NCBI RefSeq assembly: GCF_000384255.1
Contig: NZ_KB913035.1
Location: 1,711,362-1,775,361, forward strand
Length of the DNA: 64,000 nucleotides
Source of the DNA: Methylotenera mobilis 13
Lineage (GTDB): Bacteria; Pseudomonadota; Gammaproteobacteria; Burkholderiales; Methylophilaceae
Direction of reading: 5' to 3'
Shown: in pieces, positions 46,300-54,503 of the stretch
Numbering within the stretch: position 1 is the stretch's first letter
Layout: each line of letters opens with the position of its first letter
Made by a program: the position numbers and the translations under genes
The notes under the pieces: model-generated
Database searches by the model: none
What the model was told of the DNA's origin: nothing
Seen by the model: only the letters and a program-made list of their open reading frames with translations

Positions 46300-46366
46300 C
46301 GTCAATCTAAGCGCATGTTTTGGCATATAATCTAATTCTTACATAATCGCTTTTTCTAACGTTTTC

Positions 46367-48853
46367 ATGCGCAATCACTTTGATGTCATTATTATTGGTG
46401 CGGGGCCTAGCGGCTTATCAGCAGCCGCACGTGCATCTGAGCAAAAGCTTTCTTATCTGGTCTTAGAGGCTGCAGAAGCTGCTGCTAATACCATTCGTAA
46501 CTATCAACGCCGCAAACTGGTGATGGCGGAGCCTCGCGGCTTACCGTTAAGAAGCCCTCTACCCTTTGCTGCCTCACTCCGTGAATCTGTATTAGATGCT
46601 TGGGAAAGCTTGATTGAAAAATATCAAATTAATATACGATACCAAGCAAAAGTGGTTGCAATCTCGCGTAAGGGTGGTTCAGATAGTAAAACTGAGCCTT
46701 TAAAAGTAGAGTTAAGTGATGGTGACGCGTTCACTGCAGATAACGTGATATTAGCCATTGGCGTGCAAGGTAATTTGCGTAAACTAGAAATTCCTGGCGG
46801 TGACTTACCTCAAATCCAGTACCAATTAGATGATCCAGAAGCTTACCAAAATGAAACCATCGTAGTCATTGGTGGTGGTGATACTGGTGTTGAAAATGCG
46901 CTGGCTCTCACTGGCCGTAATCAGGTCATTGTGTTAAACCGTGCCGAAGACTTTAGTAATTGTAAGGAAAGCAACCTTACTCAATTAACAGAAGCGAGAC
47001 AAAGAGGCGCCCTAGACTGGTTGTTAGAAACACGTCCACAGTCTATTGAGCAAAACAGTAAAGGTGAGTTTCCAATCACATTGTTCGCTGATACCCCCAA
47101 AGGGGTTGAACGCATTCCATGCCATCGGATTATTGCACGTCTAGGTGCACTACCTTCTAGGCCTTTACTTGAAAGCTTCGGCGTAGCTTTTCCTACCGCA
47201 GACTTAGCTGCCCTGCCAGTGCTTTCATCCCGCTACGAATCTAACGTACCTGGCTTATATATTATTGGTGCACTTGCTGGTTACCCACTAATAAAACAAG
47301 GGATTAACCAAGGTTACGAAGTCATTGAGCATATTCTTGGTAACCCAGTTGAAGCCGCTGATACAGCATTACTAAGAGAAAAGTTTGCAACTTTTTGTTC
47401 TGACCGTGGCATTGAAGACGTACTTGATAAGATTCAGCGTAGCGTTCCATTGTTACGCCTGCTCAACTCGCTACAACTGAGAGAGTTAATTCTAGAAAGT
47501 AATATTTTACTACCAGCACCAGGCGACACCATCTTTGAACGTAATGACTATAGCACTTCGTTCTTTTTTGTGATCGAAGGTGAATTGGAAATGCTCATTG
47601 ATGAAGATGACATTCCTGATGACACCTTCAAAAGTGGCGAGTTCTTTGGTGAAATGGGCTTATTATCGGGTCGCCGCAGAATTGCAACAGTAAGAGCTAA
47701 AACACATTGTGCGCTGATTGAAACACCACGTCGTGTCATATTAAAACTCATTAATTCAGTGCAAGCCATGCGCAGAACACTGGATGAAGTCGCCATTAAA
47801 CGGATTGTACATGCATGCATTGGCCTCACTTTAAGTGAAGATGACCTCAATGACCTAGCATCACATGCTGTTATTAAGCAATATGCTGCTGGTGAAGAGC
47901 TGTTTCATGAAGGCGACGAAGCGGATGGTCTTTACTTAATCAGGCGTGGCTCTGTCACGGTTTCACGCATGATGACAGGTCGAGAGGTTGTTCTATTTTA
48001 TGTGGCCGCAGGTAATTACGTTGGTGAAATGTCTTTAATTTCTGGCGAACCCCGCTACGCCACAGTACGCGCAGCAATTGCGACTGAAGCTATTTTAATT
48101 GATGTGGCACGGATGCAAGGTATCATTGCGCGCAACCCTGAAGTTCGCGCATCACTAGATGCTCGTTATTTACAACATTTACAAGAACAAGAAAAAAGAC
48201 AGCAATCAGAAACCTCATCAGAAGGCGGTAGCAGTTTTTCCAGTCAAACCACTCAATCCAGCCTAATTTCCTTTTTAATACAACAAGGTGTAGGTGAAGC
48301 TACTGACGTTTTACTGATTGACGAGTCGTTATGTGTACGCTGTAACCATTGCGAACAAGCTTGTGCTGATACGCATGGCGGCGCTACACGGCTAGATCGC
48401 GATACTGGCCCCATATATGCCAACATTCGTGTACCTACGTCTTGCCGCCACTGTGAACACCCTCATTGCATGAAGGACTGCCCACCGGATGCCATCCATC
48501 GAGCACCGCATGGCGAAGTCTACATTGATGACAGTTGCATTGGCTGTGGTAATTGCCAACAAAACTGCCCATACGATGTGATTCAAATGGCAGTGATTCA
48601 GGATCAACCAGAACAAAGTTTATGGCAAATGCTTCTCGGTATTCAACCTAAACAAGTGGCATCGACTAACAATACAAAAGTTGCCGTCAAATGTGACATG
48701 TGTAAAGACATTGCCGATGGTCCAGTATGTGTTCGCGCTTGTCCAGTTGGTGCGGCTTTGCGGGTCAATCCTGAAGAACTTTTAGGCTATGCAAGCAATA
48801 ATGCCGCGAATAGTGCTGATGAACACAATCTACTCGGAATAGATGATGCTTAA
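46367..48853 (+). CDS. FAD/NAD(P) reductase with two cNMP-binding domains and a 4x[4Fe-4S] ferredoxin domain
   Basis: An 828-residue fusion. Residues 1-330 form a thioredoxin-reductase-like flavoprotein: FAD loop GAGPSG near 11, NAD(P) loop GGGDTG near 169, LYIIGALAGYPLIKQG at its end. No CxxC redox pair is seen. Two cyclic-nucleotide-binding domains follow, with intact phosphate cassettes GEMGLLSGRRRIATVRA (near 428) and GEMSLISGEPRYATVRA (near 553). From about 650 there is a DmsB/NrfC-type domain with four cysteine groups (CVRCNHCEQAC, CRHCEHPHCMKDC, CIGCGNCQQNC, CDMC...CVRAC). No signal peptide, so cytosolic. It should carry electrons between NAD(P)H and the membrane protein next to it, gated by cyclic nucleotide. 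Function is inference. Confidence 0.85.
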   Translation: MRNHFDVIIIGAGPSGLSAAARASEQKLSYLVLEAAEAAANTIRNYQRRKLVMAEPRGLPLRSPLPFAASLRESVLDAWESLIEKYQINIRYQAKVVAISRKGGSDSKTEPLKVELSDGDAFTADNVILAIGVQGNLRKLEIPGGDLPQIQYQLDDPEAYQNETIVVIGGGDTGVENALALTGRNQVIVLNRAEDFSNCKESNLTQLTEARQRGALDWLLETRPQSIEQNSKGEFPITLFADTPKGVERIPCHRIIARLGALPSRPLLESFGVAFPTADLAALPVLSSRYESNVPGLYIIGALAGYPLIKQGINQGYEVIEHILGNPVEAADTALLREKFATFCSDRGIEDVLDKIQRSVPLLRLLNSLQLRELILESNILLPAPGDTIFERNDYSTSFFFVIEGELEMLIDEDDIPDDTFKSGEFFGEMGLLSGRRRIATVRAKTHCALIETPRRVILKLINSVQAMRRTLDEVAIKRIVHACIGLTLSEDDLNDLASHAVIKQYAAGEELFHEGDEADGLYLIRRGSVTVSRMMTGREVVLFYVAAGNYVGEMSLISGEPRYATVRAAIATEAILIDVARMQGIIARNPEVRASLDARYLQHLQEQEKRQQSETSSEGGSSFSSQTTQSSLISFLIQQGVGEATDVLLIDESLCVRCNHCEQACADTHGGATRLDRDTGPIYANIRVPTSCRHCEHPHCMKDCPPDAIHRAPHGEVYIDDSCIGCGNCQQNCPYDVIQMAVIQDQPEQSLWQMLLGIQPKQVASTNNTKVAVKCDMCKDIADGPVCVRACPVGAALRVNPEELLGYASNNAANSADEHNLLGIDDA

Positions 48854-48865
48854 AGGGAATATTTA

Positions 48866-49696
48866 ATGCAACAAAGCAATATGTTCGACTATAAAAACTA
48901 TCGCTATTTCAAAATAGCGGTTGTGATTATTTTAATTGCATTCGCTGCTTTTTTGTTTTTTGAGCCTGCTGTGGGTCATTATGGTGGTAGCTGGCTTGGT
49001 TATACACTAGGCACAATATCAGCACTCATGGTGCTCTGGATGACTTGGTATGGCATCAGAAAACGTCGCTATCGTGGCACAGGCGCAACGCAAGGTTGGT
49101 TATCCGCCCATATTTACTTAGGCACAGCACTTACAGTTTTTGTCACATTACATAGCGGCTTTCATTTTGGGCTTAACATTCACACCCTAGCCTATGCTTT
49201 ATTGTTGATTGTCGTCATCAGTGGATTTTTTGGTAATTACACCTACATGATTTATCCACGTAAAATGACAGAAAACATGGGGGAAGATAGCCTGGATGGT
49301 CTTTTATTAAGAATTGCTGAGGCAGACAAACTGGCTCGCAAAATTGCTCTACTCATGCCAGATGAGATCAACAATACTGTGTTACGCGCATGCCGTGAAA
49401 CTTCGATTGGCTTAAGCTTAATTGACCAATTAAGTGGCTTTCAACCTAACTGTCCTTCAGCAAAAGCAGTGCAAGAGCTCACCGTACTTGGTCAAAACTT
49501 GGCCGTGGATCAACGCAAAGTGTATCGTGAGCTATATTCAATTATGGTGCGCCGAGAGTCTTTAGTTAAACGCGCTCGACAAGACCTGATGTACCGTGCA
49601 AGACTTGGCATCTGGCTATACTTACATGTGCCGTTTACCGTGGGCTTATTAGTAGCAATGCTGGCACATATTGTTGCCGTATTTGTTTATTGGTAA
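48866..49696 (+). CDS. Membrane cytochrome-b-like subunit with two His-x13-His pairs
   Basis: A 276-residue protein with about five helices (near 16-36, 44-61, 82-102, 106-128, 250-274) and a cytosolic helical insert at about 130-245. Histidines H82/H96 on the third helix and H254/H268 on the last helix are both exactly 14 residues apart, the spacing used to bind two stacked b-type haems in cytochrome b of the bc1 complex. No named family is recognised. It follows the Fe-S protein by 12 bases and precedes the decahaem gene, so it is the natural membrane link. Confidence 0.7.
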   Translation: MQQSNMFDYKNYRYFKIAVVIILIAFAAFLFFEPAVGHYGGSWLGYTLGTISALMVLWMTWYGIRKRRYRGTGATQGWLSAHIYLGTALTVFVTLHSGFHFGLNIHTLAYALLLIVVISGFFGNYTYMIYPRKMTENMGEDSLDGLLLRIAEADKLARKIALLMPDEINNTVLRACRETSIGLSLIDQLSGFQPNCPSAKAVQELTVLGQNLAVDQRKVYRELYSIMVRRESLVKRARQDLMYRARLGIWLYLHVPFTVGLLVAMLAHIVAVFVYW

Positions 49697-49812
49697 TGGC
49701 AAACTTAATTATTTATGTGTGAATAAAGCCAACACGCAGCATCTAATGCATTTGAAATAAAAACAACAATGCCAAATAAAGCACAAGCAAAAGCAGATGA
49801 ATAGAACTTTTT

Positions 49813-51459
49813 ATGATTAATTGTTTGTTAATAAAAATCACGAATAACTCACGCGGACTTCCTGTTCGCAACTACCGCACACTCAACGCCACAGAATTAA
49901 TGATTGGCCGCAGTGCAGAGTGCAATATTCATTTGGCTGACCCTCGTATTGCGATGCATCATGCAGTCATTAAAGAGTTAGAAGACGGCCATCTCTACGT
50001 TGTTAGTATAAACGGCGAAATTGAAGTCGATGGTGCAATGTTGCAAAACATTAAGCTGATTCCTGGCAAGCAAATCATGATTGGCCCCTATCAGCTCAAT
50101 GTCGAGCCTGCTCCGCCCGATGTCAACCTATCCGTTTCACTGACGCTAGTGAATCCACTTTCTGATGACTATCAAGATCTTAAAGCGCGCACACATGAAC
50201 CACTGCCAAACGCCTTTAAGTTTAAATGGCGTTTATCAATGTGGCTAATTGCCTTTATCTCACTTGTGTTTTTGGTGTTGCCATTAGCCCAAAATCTAAT
50301 TCCGCAACTACAGTCATCAATGTCAGAGCTACCTTTTGGTTTCGACCGTGTGTGGAGCTCTGGCCGAATGTCCACGGCTCACCGCCATTTCGGCTCTCAA
50401 TGTTTCAACTGTCATCAAGCGCCACTAAAAAAAGTATCAGACAAAGCCTGTGTGAACTGCCATCAAGATACAGCACCTCACATTGCTGATCCAGAACTAC
50501 AAAAACGATCATTAAAAGCCGCACACCGTTTTATTGGCAGTATGCGCTGTGCAGAGTGCCATCAAGAACACAAGGCTCCGCACCCACTTGCCCGTCAAGA
50601 TAACAATATGTGCATTAAATGTCACGGCGCAATTAGAACGATAGATCCAGAAACAAAGCTTCCCAATATCCGTGATTTTGAGAAAAAACACCCAGATTTT
50701 GAGTTAAGTTTTAAAACTGGACCTGGGCCTAAAGATATAGAGCGTATTCCTCAATCAAACCAATCCAAACTGATTGAAAAATCAGGTTTAAAATTCCCAC
50801 ATGATCAACATATTGGTAAAGTACAAGGGCCTAATGGCATTTGGGATGTGCGCGAGCTTGCATGCACTAGCTGCCACCAAGCTGAAGGAAAAGAAATGCG
50901 TTTTAAAGCGCTTTCTTACAAAAACAACTGTAGCACTTGCCATACAAGCGAACTTCAAATTGGTGCTAAAGATAATAAACTCACCTTACCGCATGGTGAA
51001 GAGCAAAACATGTTCAATGCTTTAAAGCTTTACGCGCCTAAAGAATTTGATCGTTACTCAGACCAGCTAAAAAATAATGGTTGCGCATATTGCCACGAAG
51101 TACAGCCAGCAAAAACCGGAGATAAATTACCTTGGAGTGTAATGCCATTGCGCCTAAACAATGATTGGCTGGCTAAGGCTCAATTTAACCATGCAGCACA
51201 CCGTACACAGCAATGTACTTCATGCCATAAGGTAGAAGCTTCGAAAAGCAGTGCTGATGTTGCAATCCCTAATCGACAATCATGTTTATTATGTCACTCT
51301 GGCAACACACCAAAGCATAAACGCATTGCAAGCAGTTGTATGTCTTGCCATACCTTCCATAATGCACATCAAGGCTATGATCTAATTACTGGTGCAAAAG
51401 TAGAGACTAAAGATGTAGATATATTAAGCACATTACCAACGGTTACTGAGAAAAAGTAA
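49813..51459 (+). CDS. FHA-domain protein with periplasmic decahaem cytochrome c
   Basis: A 548-residue protein. An N-terminal forkhead-associated domain at about 1-105 has GRS (32-34) and the final NG (67-68), but the usual S-R-x-H is changed to A-M-H-H (RIAMHH, 45-50), so phosphothreonine binding may be altered. A positively flanked helix at 141-159 puts FHA inside and the rest outside. The periplasmic part has ten CxxCH motifs: CFNCH, CVNCH, CAECH, CIKCH, CTSCH, CSTCH, CAYCH, CTSCH, CLLCH, CMSCH. A multihaem wire coupled to a cytosolic FHA sensor is not a combination I recognise. Confidence 0.85.
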   Translation: MINCLLIKITNNSRGLPVRNYRTLNATELMIGRSAECNIHLADPRIAMHHAVIKELEDGHLYVVSINGEIEVDGAMLQNIKLIPGKQIMIGPYQLNVEPAPPDVNLSVSLTLVNPLSDDYQDLKARTHEPLPNAFKFKWRLSMWLIAFISLVFLVLPLAQNLIPQLQSSMSELPFGFDRVWSSGRMSTAHRHFGSQCFNCHQAPLKKVSDKACVNCHQDTAPHIADPELQKRSLKAAHRFIGSMRCAECHQEHKAPHPLARQDNNMCIKCHGAIRTIDPETKLPNIRDFEKKHPDFELSFKTGPGPKDIERIPQSNQSKLIEKSGLKFPHDQHIGKVQGPNGIWDVRELACTSCHQAEGKEMRFKALSYKNNCSTCHTSELQIGAKDNKLTLPHGEEQNMFNALKLYAPKEFDRYSDQLKNNGCAYCHEVQPAKTGDKLPWSVMPLRLNNDWLAKAQFNHAAHRTQQCTSCHKVEASKSSADVAIPNRQSCLLCHSGNTPKHKRIASSCMSCHTFHNAHQGYDLITGAKVETKDVDILSTLPTVTEKK

Positions 51460-53137: not shown

Positions 53138-54503
53138 CGGTTAGCACGTAAAACCTCGTCCTTCAGGGCGAGGATGTAAGCGTAACGGCGAAGACGTTTA
53201 GGTTGAATAAAGCAAAAATTTGACAACCAAACATTCCATGCTAACTTGTAATGATGAAACGCCTGCAAGCCTACCAATTTGAACTCATGCCAAATGGTGA
53301 ACAATCCCGCGCCATGCGTCAATATGCTGGCTGTTGTCGTGTGGTCTATAACAAGGCTTTGGTATGGCAGAACGAACAATATCAGGCTGACAATACTTTC
53401 AAGTTTGGTTATACCAAAATTGCTAATCTATTGCCTCTTTGGAAAAGTGAACTAGCTTGGCTAAAAGACGCACCTAGTCAAGCCCTGCAACAAACTCTCA
53501 AGAACCTTGAAACTAGTTTCAGAAACTTCTTTGCCAGACGCGCTGACTTTCCCAAGTTCAAGAAGAAAGGCGTAAGCGACAGTTTTCGATTCCCGCAAGG
53601 CTTCAAGATTGAGCAGCACAACAACCGTCTCTTTCTACCCAAGCTAGGCTGGATACGTTACCGCAACAGCCGTGAAATGTTGGGCGTAGCGAAAAACATC
53701 ACCGTTTCACAAAAATGCGGTAAGTGGTATGCGTCCATACAAACCGAACGAGAAGTAGCACAACCAGAACACGCCGCAACCAGTATCGTTGGTGTGGACG
53801 TAGGCATCGCCCGCTTTGCCACACTCAGCAATGGACAAGTGTTTGAGTCCGTGAATAGCTTCAAACAAAAACAAACAAGGTTGGCGCGGTATCAACGTGC
53901 GTTAAGCCGCAAAGTTAAATTCAGTAGTCATTGGAAAAAGCAGAAAGGCAAAATCACCCGGCTCCACAGCACCATTGCAAATATCAGAAAAGACTACCTG
54001 CACAAAACGACATCTACCATCAGCCAAAACCACGCCATGATAGTGATAGAAGATTTGCAGATTAGTCATATGAGCAAGAGTGCCAAAGGCACGATTGAAA
54101 CTAAAGGACGGAACGTTAAGCAGAAATCAGGTTTGAATCGTTCCATCCTAGACCAAGGCTGGTTTGAATTCAGGCGGCAGCTTGAATACAAGCAAGCATG
54201 GGCAGGCGGTCAGGTGTTAGCTGTGAATCCGCGCAACACCAGCCGCACCTGCCCGTGTTGTAAACACGTCGCCAAAGAAAACCGCCAAACACAAGCCAAG
54301 TTTGAATGTGTGGCATGCGGCTATGCAGAAAATGCCGATTTGGTCGGTGCAATCAATATATTAGCGGCAGGACATGCCGTCTTAGCGTGTGGAGTGACGG
54401 TGCAACAAGACCGAACAGTGAAGCATGAACCCGCCGAAGGTATCCGCAAGTCATCGCGTGAGCCCGTAGGAATCCCCGCTCTTTAGGGCGGGGAGGATGT
54501 CAA
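53138..54503 (+). mobile_element. IS200/IS605-type element with TnpB only
   Basis: The left end has a hairpin CCTCGTCC-TTCA-GGGCGAGG (53154-53173) preceded directly by AAAA. The right end has GAAT directly before CCCCGCTC-TTTA-GGGCGGGG (54474-54493) and ends TCAA. IS608 uses the same plan: a four-base guide next to each hairpin, with GAAT reading TCAA on the right. TTTAT on the left flank would be the target/TAM, and AAAA is what the IS608 pairing rule predicts for TTAT. No tnpA is present, so movement would need a TnpA in trans. The boundaries are inferred from these motifs and the rebuilt empty site. Confidence 0.75.
53251..54486 (+). CDS. tnpB: TnpB, RNA-guided nuclease of IS605-type element
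   Basis: A 411-residue TnpB (OrfB). Helix-turn-helix N-terminus (MPNGEQSRAMRQYAGCCRVVYN), RuvC acidic residues in VGVDVGIARFATL, IVIEDLQISHMS (E) and ENADLVGAINI (D), and a four-cysteine zinc finger (CPCCKH ... CVACGY). All catalytic positions look intact. The stop codon lies in the right-end hairpin loop. TnpB cuts DNA next to a TAM using an omega RNA made from the element's right end. Confidence 0.93.
   Translation: MMKRLQAYQFELMPNGEQSRAMRQYAGCCRVVYNKALVWQNEQYQADNTFKFGYTKIANLLPLWKSELAWLKDAPSQALQQTLKNLETSFRNFFARRADFPKFKKKGVSDSFRFPQGFKIEQHNNRLFLPKLGWIRYRNSREMLGVAKNITVSQKCGKWYASIQTEREVAQPEHAATSIVGVDVGIARFATLSNGQVFESVNSFKQKQTRLARYQRALSRKVKFSSHWKKQKGKITRLHSTIANIRKDYLHKTTSTISQNHAMIVIEDLQISHMSKSAKGTIETKGRNVKQKSGLNRSILDQGWFEFRRQLEYKQAWAGGQVLAVNPRNTSRTCPCCKHVAKENRQTQAKFECVACGYAENADLVGAINILAAGHAVLACGVTVQQDRTVKHEPAEGIRKSSREPVGIPAL

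Follow-up and report, generated by a model that had tools for sequence, protein, structure and literature searches.

In the genome of Methylotenera mobilis 13 (2.8 Mb, a single contig), a 64-kb stretch of DNA, hereafter the window, carries a three-gene unit that we explain best, with moderate confidence, as a transmembrane NAD(P)H oxidoreductase of three subunits that would be gated directly by cAMP or cGMP and would send electrons outward. The unit encodes a reductase of 828 amino acids (aa; window positions 46367 to 48853), an inner membrane protein (IMP) of 276 aa (48866 to 49696) and a cytochrome of 548 aa that combines an FHA domain, a transmembrane helix and ten haem sites (49813 to 51459). 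All three genes are intact and lie on the forward strand. Their coordinates and frames were confirmed exactly, with intergenic gaps of 12 and 116 nt, as expected from an earlier note on this DNA that had described three tightly spaced, co-directional genes. That note had also proposed that the unit forms a regulated conduit linking NAD(P)H with periplasmic acceptors or donors. The proposal fits the evidence and its parts co-occur, but it went wrong in leaving the membrane protein unnamed, which by its motifs is an IMP of the type described for the predicted porin-cytochrome complexes (PCC) PCC3 and PCC4.

By its sequence, the 828-aa protein is a YpdA/thioredoxin-reductase-type FAD/NAD(P) domain joined to two cyclic nucleotide (cNMP)-binding domains and four [4Fe-4S] clusters. 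The assignment draws on Pfam, profile matches to solved chains and conservation over 83 aligned rows, in which some genomes are entered twice. Pfam detects Pyr_redox_2/3, two stretches of cNMP_binding (128.6 bits in total) and Fer4_11 with its relatives. The FAD/NAD(P)-binding domain (46382 to 47314, residues ~6-316; Pfam and solved-chain match) resembles YpdA/TrxR-type reductases in that its best solved chain is YpdA (7a7b); it differs in scoring 110.3 with the YpdA model TIGR04018, below the curated cut-off of 339.9, and in being fused to regulatory and Fe-S domains. The glycines of its two GxG motifs are kept in 82-83 of the 83 reductases. A CXXC motif between residues 100 and 330 was found in none of the 83, and therefore a role as a thioredoxin-type disulphide reductase is unlikely. 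The first cNMP-binding domain, with E429 and R438, has approximate, inferred bounds (47480 to 47776), and the second, with E554 and R563, was placed by Pfam (47876 to 48136, residues 504-590); the pair matches the regulatory tandem of PKA/PKG among solved chains. The four-cluster ferredoxin domain of the DmsB/HydN type (48311 to 48781, residues ~649-805; Pfam and NCBIfam) matches HycB3 and formate hydrogenlyase subunit 2, and PF13247 matches the reductase at 40.7 bits as one domain of the larger protein. Each of the 16 cluster cysteines is present in all 83 rows. A weak promoter-like site (46320 to 46347, forward strand) was found 20 nt upstream of the reductase gene; the region has eight such sites against a mean of 13.9 in shuffled sequence, fewer than expected from shuffling.

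The 276-aa protein, recognised by motifs and an AF2 model, has no Pfam or NCBIfam match near cut-off. It carries two WX3HX13H motifs (W78-H82-H96 and W250-H254-H268) and one SGXXG motif (S119-G120-G123; SGFFG at 119-123). All 64 aligned homologues share the histidines His82, His96, His254 and His268. When the set is widened to 72, every protein still has His82 and His96, and 71 have His254 and His268; the one that departs is a short frame (L222). The model (pLDDT 88) has nine helices, five of which (13-31, 43-68, 74-97, 105-138 and 214-275) we read as membrane helices, with SGXXG on helix 4 and the two WX3HX13H motifs on helices 3 and 5. SGXXG and two WX3HX13H motifs define the "conserved inner membrane protein" shared by PCC3 and PCC4, which was described with five helices and, by inference, two b haems that could exchange electrons with quinone (He et al. 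2017, PMC5566968). The window protein is thus probably a two-haem cytochrome b. No relative was found in the viral contigs searched.

The third protein, defined by Pfam, hydropathy and a count of CXXCH motifs, consists of an FHA domain (49903 to 50085, residues 31-91; PF00498, 29.9 bits against a cut-off of 20.7), a single transmembrane helix located by hydropathy (50233 to 50289, residues 141-159) and ten CXXCH haem sites (50401 to 51351) with Pfam matches to cytochrome c3/c7 families. Against the PDB, the FHA sequence gave one weak match only, to an engineered protein. We rejected the idea that the FHA domain is gained or lost together with the reductase, as it is present in loci without an adjacent reductase and one locus (L062) has a reductase without FHA. 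The domain make-up claimed earlier, namely flavin/NAD(P), two intact cNMP domains and four clusters in one protein and FHA, a transmembrane helix and ten CXXCH in another, is borne out.

The three genes are conserved as a unit. IMP matches were detected in 22 of 41 genomes searched and full-length IMP in 17 of 25 genomes of the genus (own genome included in both counts), and the order reductase, IMP, decahaem cytochrome is kept in all 16 fetched genus loci (L009-L024), some of which end at contig ends (L014; L019 is cut at both ends). The IMP profile matches 39 of 369 genomes of the class (E 1e-8), 17 of them strongly (at least 184 bits) and the other 22 at ~51 bits or less. The reductase was detected in 48 of these 369 genomes at E 1e-50: 16 matches are full length, one is a fragment at a contig start (G254), and the remainder score at most 206 bits and cover the flavin domain only. 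Reductase and IMP share the same set of 17 strong genomes (hypergeometric probability ~1e-29, kinship ignored). Three of these, G078, G269 and G152, have both genes, but on different contigs or with some kilobases between them. At the level of the phylum, the IMP profile has matches in 22 of 398 genomes (E 1e-6).

A set of named loci comprises the best 80 of 587 confirmed hits and is hence skewed to close relatives (32 are Methylotenera-like); it overlaps the genome samples (e.g. L154 and L059), so that rows are not independent. Within it, the gene directly upstream of the IMP is the reductase in 61 of 80 loci (18 lack it there and one cannot be seen), and the gene directly downstream is that of the decahaem protein in 78 (two cannot be seen). 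L155 and L191 were counted as non-adjacent owing to over-extended start codons; by eye both are adjacent. We searched 17 genomes with an IMP but no adjacent reductase (15 of the 17 such named loci, leaving out L120 and L138, plus G025 and G027), and 16 hold a reductase match elsewhere (E 1e-40), three of them partial (part of the protein in G417 and G421; 104 residues of the flavin part, of unsure type, in G408). At this threshold, no reductase match was found in the genome of G027. The neighbourhood search that the earlier note had suggested as a check came out in favour of co-occurrence. Two genomes of one genus encode reductase and IMP as a single open reading frame (ORF) of 1,118 and 1,123 aa (L185:4850-8206 and L186:3052 onward), a hint of a physical complex.

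Judged by record titles, the unit is spread over Alpha-, Beta- and Gammaproteobacteria and includes 12 Sphingobium plasmid records. The annotation on Sphingobium herbicidovorans plasmid pMSHV does not name a function for the unit; there, the three products are called "cyclic nucleotide-binding domain-containing protein", "hypothetical protein" and "cytochrome c3 family protein". The titles of L127 (Mycobacteriaceae), L149 (Mesoflavibacter) and L098 (Sulfuritalea) seem at odds with their sequences and perhaps belong to mislabelled bins.

A tree of the 72 IMPs separates 26 PCC3-type (support 1.0), three FNR-type and 43 window-type proteins (0.955). Of the window-type IMPs, 31 have a cNMP-domain reductase (L198 counted) and 12 have none adjacent. 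In 22 of the 26 PCC3-type loci we identified a different partner, a flavin/NAD(P) reductase of ~435 aa with a ferredoxin domain, whose gene is upstream of the IMP and on the other strand; it lies within 1.5 kb of the IMP in 20 loci and ~4.5 kb away in L199 and L214, and is split into two frames in L220 (L220:8407 onward). It was not seen in L201, L213 and L216, each with more than 7 kb upstream in view, nor in L215, with 1.5 kb in view. This reductase is homologous to the flavin domain of the window protein (35% over 227 residues); its domain content was checked with Pfam in one locus, L076, and the locus-scan profiles for this partner and for neighbouring genes were made from single queries and the loci themselves. 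It was detected in 13 of 14 genomes searched, as a single match in 10 of the 13, with G223 lacking a match. PCC3-type loci also contain giant multihaem genes, with 43 CXXCH in L076:2204-5428, 60 in L214:10522 onward and 52 in L220:1 onward, the last cut at the locus start. In the third set (L202, L204 and, in the own genome, L027), the IMP is paired with an FNR-type reductase (profile matches, with Pfam for L027).

A rival explanation is a quinone-linked conduit, as He et al. proposed for PCC3/PCC4 (PMC5566968). The cytochrome b would then trade electrons with the quinone pool, leaving another or a regulatory role to the flavin/Fe-S protein. He et al. point to the quinone activity of related two-haem cytochromes b (PMC5566968), and the model also gains from L198, whose reductase homologue has no flavin domain. 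Against it stand the co-occurrence of an NAD(P)H-type Fe-S reductase with three IMP clades and the direct fusion of reductase and IMP. We regard the quinone model as unlikely, and coupling to NAD(P)H as likelier, because each of the three clades travels with its own NAD(P)H/Fe-S module. NAD(P)H, and not only quinone, would then be the cytoplasmic partner of the IMP cytochromes.

From the parts of the unit, their conservation and their linkage we infer the following pathway. Cytoplasmic NAD(P)H would reduce the FAD of the 828-aa protein, and electrons would pass from FAD through the four [4Fe-4S] clusters to two stacked b haems of the IMP, putatively ligated by His82/His254 at the inner side and His96/His268 at the outer side of the inner membrane. 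The b haems would hand electrons to the membrane-anchored decahaem cytochrome and thus to the periplasm. The two cNMP domains, placed between flavin and clusters, would gate this flow directly upon binding of cAMP or cGMP, and the FHA domain may serve as a cytoplasmic docking part. Net flow would most likely be outward, since NAD(P)H has a low potential and the membrane is negative inside, both of which favour that direction (general bioenergetics). The reverse case is electron uptake, in which donors in the periplasm or at the surface, such as Fe(II), would feed electrons inward and make NAD(P)H. According to record titles, several hosts belong to iron-oxidising groups (Gallionella, Ferrigenium), and a PCC3 inner membrane gene is reported, in the retrieved part of PMC12442390, to be higher in iron-oxidising cells of Sideroxydans CL21. 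Such a flow would, however, be uphill in both midpoint and membrane potential without coupling, and other hosts, such as Sphingobium, are to our knowledge not lithotrophs. We therefore consider uptake very improbable.

Beyond the inner membrane, the relatives differ in what follows the unit. Of the named loci outside Methylotenera, 31 have 8.5 kb visible downstream, and in 21 of these we detected together an HbpS-like probable lipoprotein, a protein of ~630 aa and a second decahaem cytochrome; none of the three was seen in the other 10, mostly of Gallionella type, nor in 19 Methylotenera-like loci with equal downstream sequence. The ~630-aa protein has no Pfam match. For the L118 copy an 18-strand barrel was modelled (pLDDT 65, with a poor N-terminus), whose best PDB match is AlgE (E 3e-16), so a pore in the outer membrane is probable. 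The second cytochrome is often ~1,250 aa long; one full-length example (L146:16455-20411) was tested and ends in LVIVD repeats, and homologues of similar size occur in many loci. Some relatives of the window unit have a barrel and a tetrahaem cytochrome at the locus. In many relatives, the second decahaem cytochrome and the beta-barrel would carry electrons on to the cell surface, while Methylotenera would retain the inner part only. The barrel profile found nothing in 18 genomes of the genus, the own genome included. In the own genome no member of the MtrB family was found either, and PF14522 matches only two proteins there, the window decahaem protein and the cytochrome of L027. A periplasmic acceptor is expected from these results, and the acceptor in Methylotenera is probably of this kind.

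The missing outer part is also what a periplasmic reductase for iron assimilation or for defence against peroxide or metals would predict, comparable to ferric reductases and with no respiratory role. The paralogous set L027 of the own genome is relevant here. It comprises an FNR-type [2Fe-2S] reductase with an N-terminal extension, a 248-aa IMP and a seven-haem cytochrome (L027:5617-9468; own genome C1:1633616-1637467), and its neighbours, read by eye, resemble genes for a multicopper oxidase and a CopA-type ATPase. L027 could possibly be a copper- or peroxide-linked NAD(P)H conduit. However, in many relatives of the window unit the operon goes on to encode a probable outer-membrane barrel and a large second decahaem protein, which is beyond the needs of iron assimilation, and for the window unit we rate assimilation or defence as rather unlikely.

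With respect to control of the proposed NAD(P)H oxidoreductase, Glu and Arg of the cNMP phosphate-binding cassette presumably bind the ribose and the phosphate, respectively. E429 and R438 of the first domain are each present in all 83 aligned reductases, and E554 and R563 of the second in 82 and 81. As both domains keep intact ligand residues, nucleotide binding is predicted, and the conduit is probably switched by a cyclic nucleotide. A gene for a CHASE2-cyclase lies beside the unit or within ~3 kb in six of the 17 strong class loci, from four genera (domains checked in L063 only), and in L060, L061, L063 and L072 it is part of a recurrent trio with a TPR protein and a FecR-domain protein. 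The own genome encodes a class III cyclase elsewhere (209.6 bits), so a ligand can probably be made.

Several observations weigh against our explanation. No CHASE2-cyclase was found near the unit in the 80 named loci or in 13 strong phylum loci. The window reductase lacks the second arginine of the NADPH motif and may therefore use NADH or NADPH. In phosphothreonine-binding FHA domains, Arg, Ser and Asn make conserved contacts. Over 104 aligned rows, Arg is found in 96, the Ser position is kept in 16 and Asn in 30, and some homologues have no FHA domain; phosphopeptide binding is doubtful, as Arg is kept but Ser mostly lost. A plain hydropathy scan of the IMP flags only the first, fourth and fifth of the five helices. 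Foldseek against the PDB returned nothing at E 0.001 and a profile search against solved PDB chains nothing meaningful, so that the cytochrome-b reading comes from the histidine pattern. For the PCC3/PCC4 IMP, He et al. proposed quinone exchange (PMC5566968). Finally, L198, basal in the window group, is a mixed case for the rule that each clade has its own partner, and the only one found when window-type loci were cross-scanned for the other two reductase types. It encodes, in order, an NAD-binding/[2Fe-2S] reductase (a separate FNR-type gene), a tetrahaem cytochrome, a cNMP and four-cluster protein without flavin domain, an IMP and a decahaem cytochrome. Its Fe-S protein and the window reductase are homologues (28% over 432 residues, E 1e-39).

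The earlier note had included TauE as a possible anion exporter; we rejected it, as TauE is near the unit in one of 16 genus relatives. An upstream GGDEF-EAL gene (three of 16 genus loci) and a downstream Mqo gene (six of 16) were likewise rejected as members. Downstream of Mqo lies a TnpB/OrfB gene of the IS605 family (53251 to 54486; 411 aa) with all three Pfam parts. A weak promoter-like site (46320 to 46347, forward strand) was found 20 nt upstream of the reductase gene; the region has eight such sites against a mean of 13.9 in shuffled sequence, fewer than expected from shuffling.

In iron-cycling bacteria, PCC3 and PCC4 are candidate systems for extracellular electron transfer, and their link to the cell interior is hypothetical (PMC5566968). 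If electrons enter from NAD(P)H and not from quinone, the energetics and direction of both complexes need rethinking. Direct gating of a transmembrane electron conduit by a cyclic nucleotide would, if true, be a form of control for which we found no report in open-access PMC. He et al. had already read the PCC3/PCC4 IMP as a cytochrome b with two haems and a possible link to quinone (PMC5566968); what appears new here, from sequence comparison, is that three IMP clades each have their own NAD(P)H/Fe-S module and that the window branch has two intact cNMP domains. As a tentative and somewhat doubtful generalisation, the IMP superfamily (PCC3, PCC4 and the window unit) could be a modular bacterial counterpart of NADPH oxidases, in which one cytochrome b core has joined with NAD(P)H/Fe-S donors of three kinds to drive electrons out, the window branch being gated directly by cAMP/cGMP and not through gene expression.

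No characterised complex of the same three subunits was found in the open-access PMC literature. The earlier statement that no such system is recognised holds to this extent, but it missed that PCC4 is a published prediction of an apparent close relative. PCC4 was predicted to comprise a porin and three periplasmic cytochromes with 4, 5 and 10 haems; in subgroup II, the IMP gene is preceded by an Fe-S gene of the PF13247 family (PMC5566968). Compared by this published description, the window unit resembles subgroup II in its IMP motifs and five modelled helices, in the PF13247 Fe-S part upstream of the IMP and in its decahaem cytochrome; L198 resembles it too, in layout only. In contrast, the Fe-S protein of the window is fused to flavin/NAD(P) and two cNMP domains, and the decahaem protein bears FHA. 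None of the terms FAD, FHA and cNMP appears in the main text of PMC5566968. No porin was seen at the window locus and its ORFs hold only the 10-haem protein, with no 4- or 5-haem cytochrome; the own genome has no barrel-profile or MtrB match, the published PCC4 porin not being among the queries. We class the unit as a relative of PCC3/PCC4 and not as a member of PCC4, because the window lacks the porin as well as the cytochromes with 4 and 5 haems. Two further reports were set aside: PMC13322032 (Methylobacter) describes, in its retrieved part, an MtrAB-type cluster, and the retrieved part of PMC9226611 (Thioclava) has no relevant passage.

With PCC3, the unit shares a homologous IMP (profile match and tree) and the presence of a flavin/NAD(P)/Fe-S reductase. 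PCC3 differs in having, as far as the retrieved parts of PMC5566968, PMC10734462 and PMC12442390 describe it, 21-24-haem periplasmic and often larger second cytochromes and a different porin. Its reductase has a small ferredoxin domain, has no cNMP domains and is divergently transcribed. None of the PCC3 hallmarks (a periplasmic multihaem cytochrome of 21-27 haems, an extracellular multihaem cytochrome and a porin) was found at the window locus. M. versatilis 301 is listed with PCC3 in the retrieved part of PMC5566968, and other Methylotenera may have PCC3 too.

The window IMP also resembles NADPH oxidases and ferric reductases (PF01794) in its two HX13H pairs on helices 3 and 5, as judged from motifs and model. 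Those enzymes hold two stacked b haems and take NAD(P)H and flavin on the inner side. Their haem pattern is also noted by He et al. (PMC5566968). PF01794 has no match to the IMP at E 0.1, and the window unit differs from them in its Fe-S relay between flavin and haem and in its multihaem acceptor.

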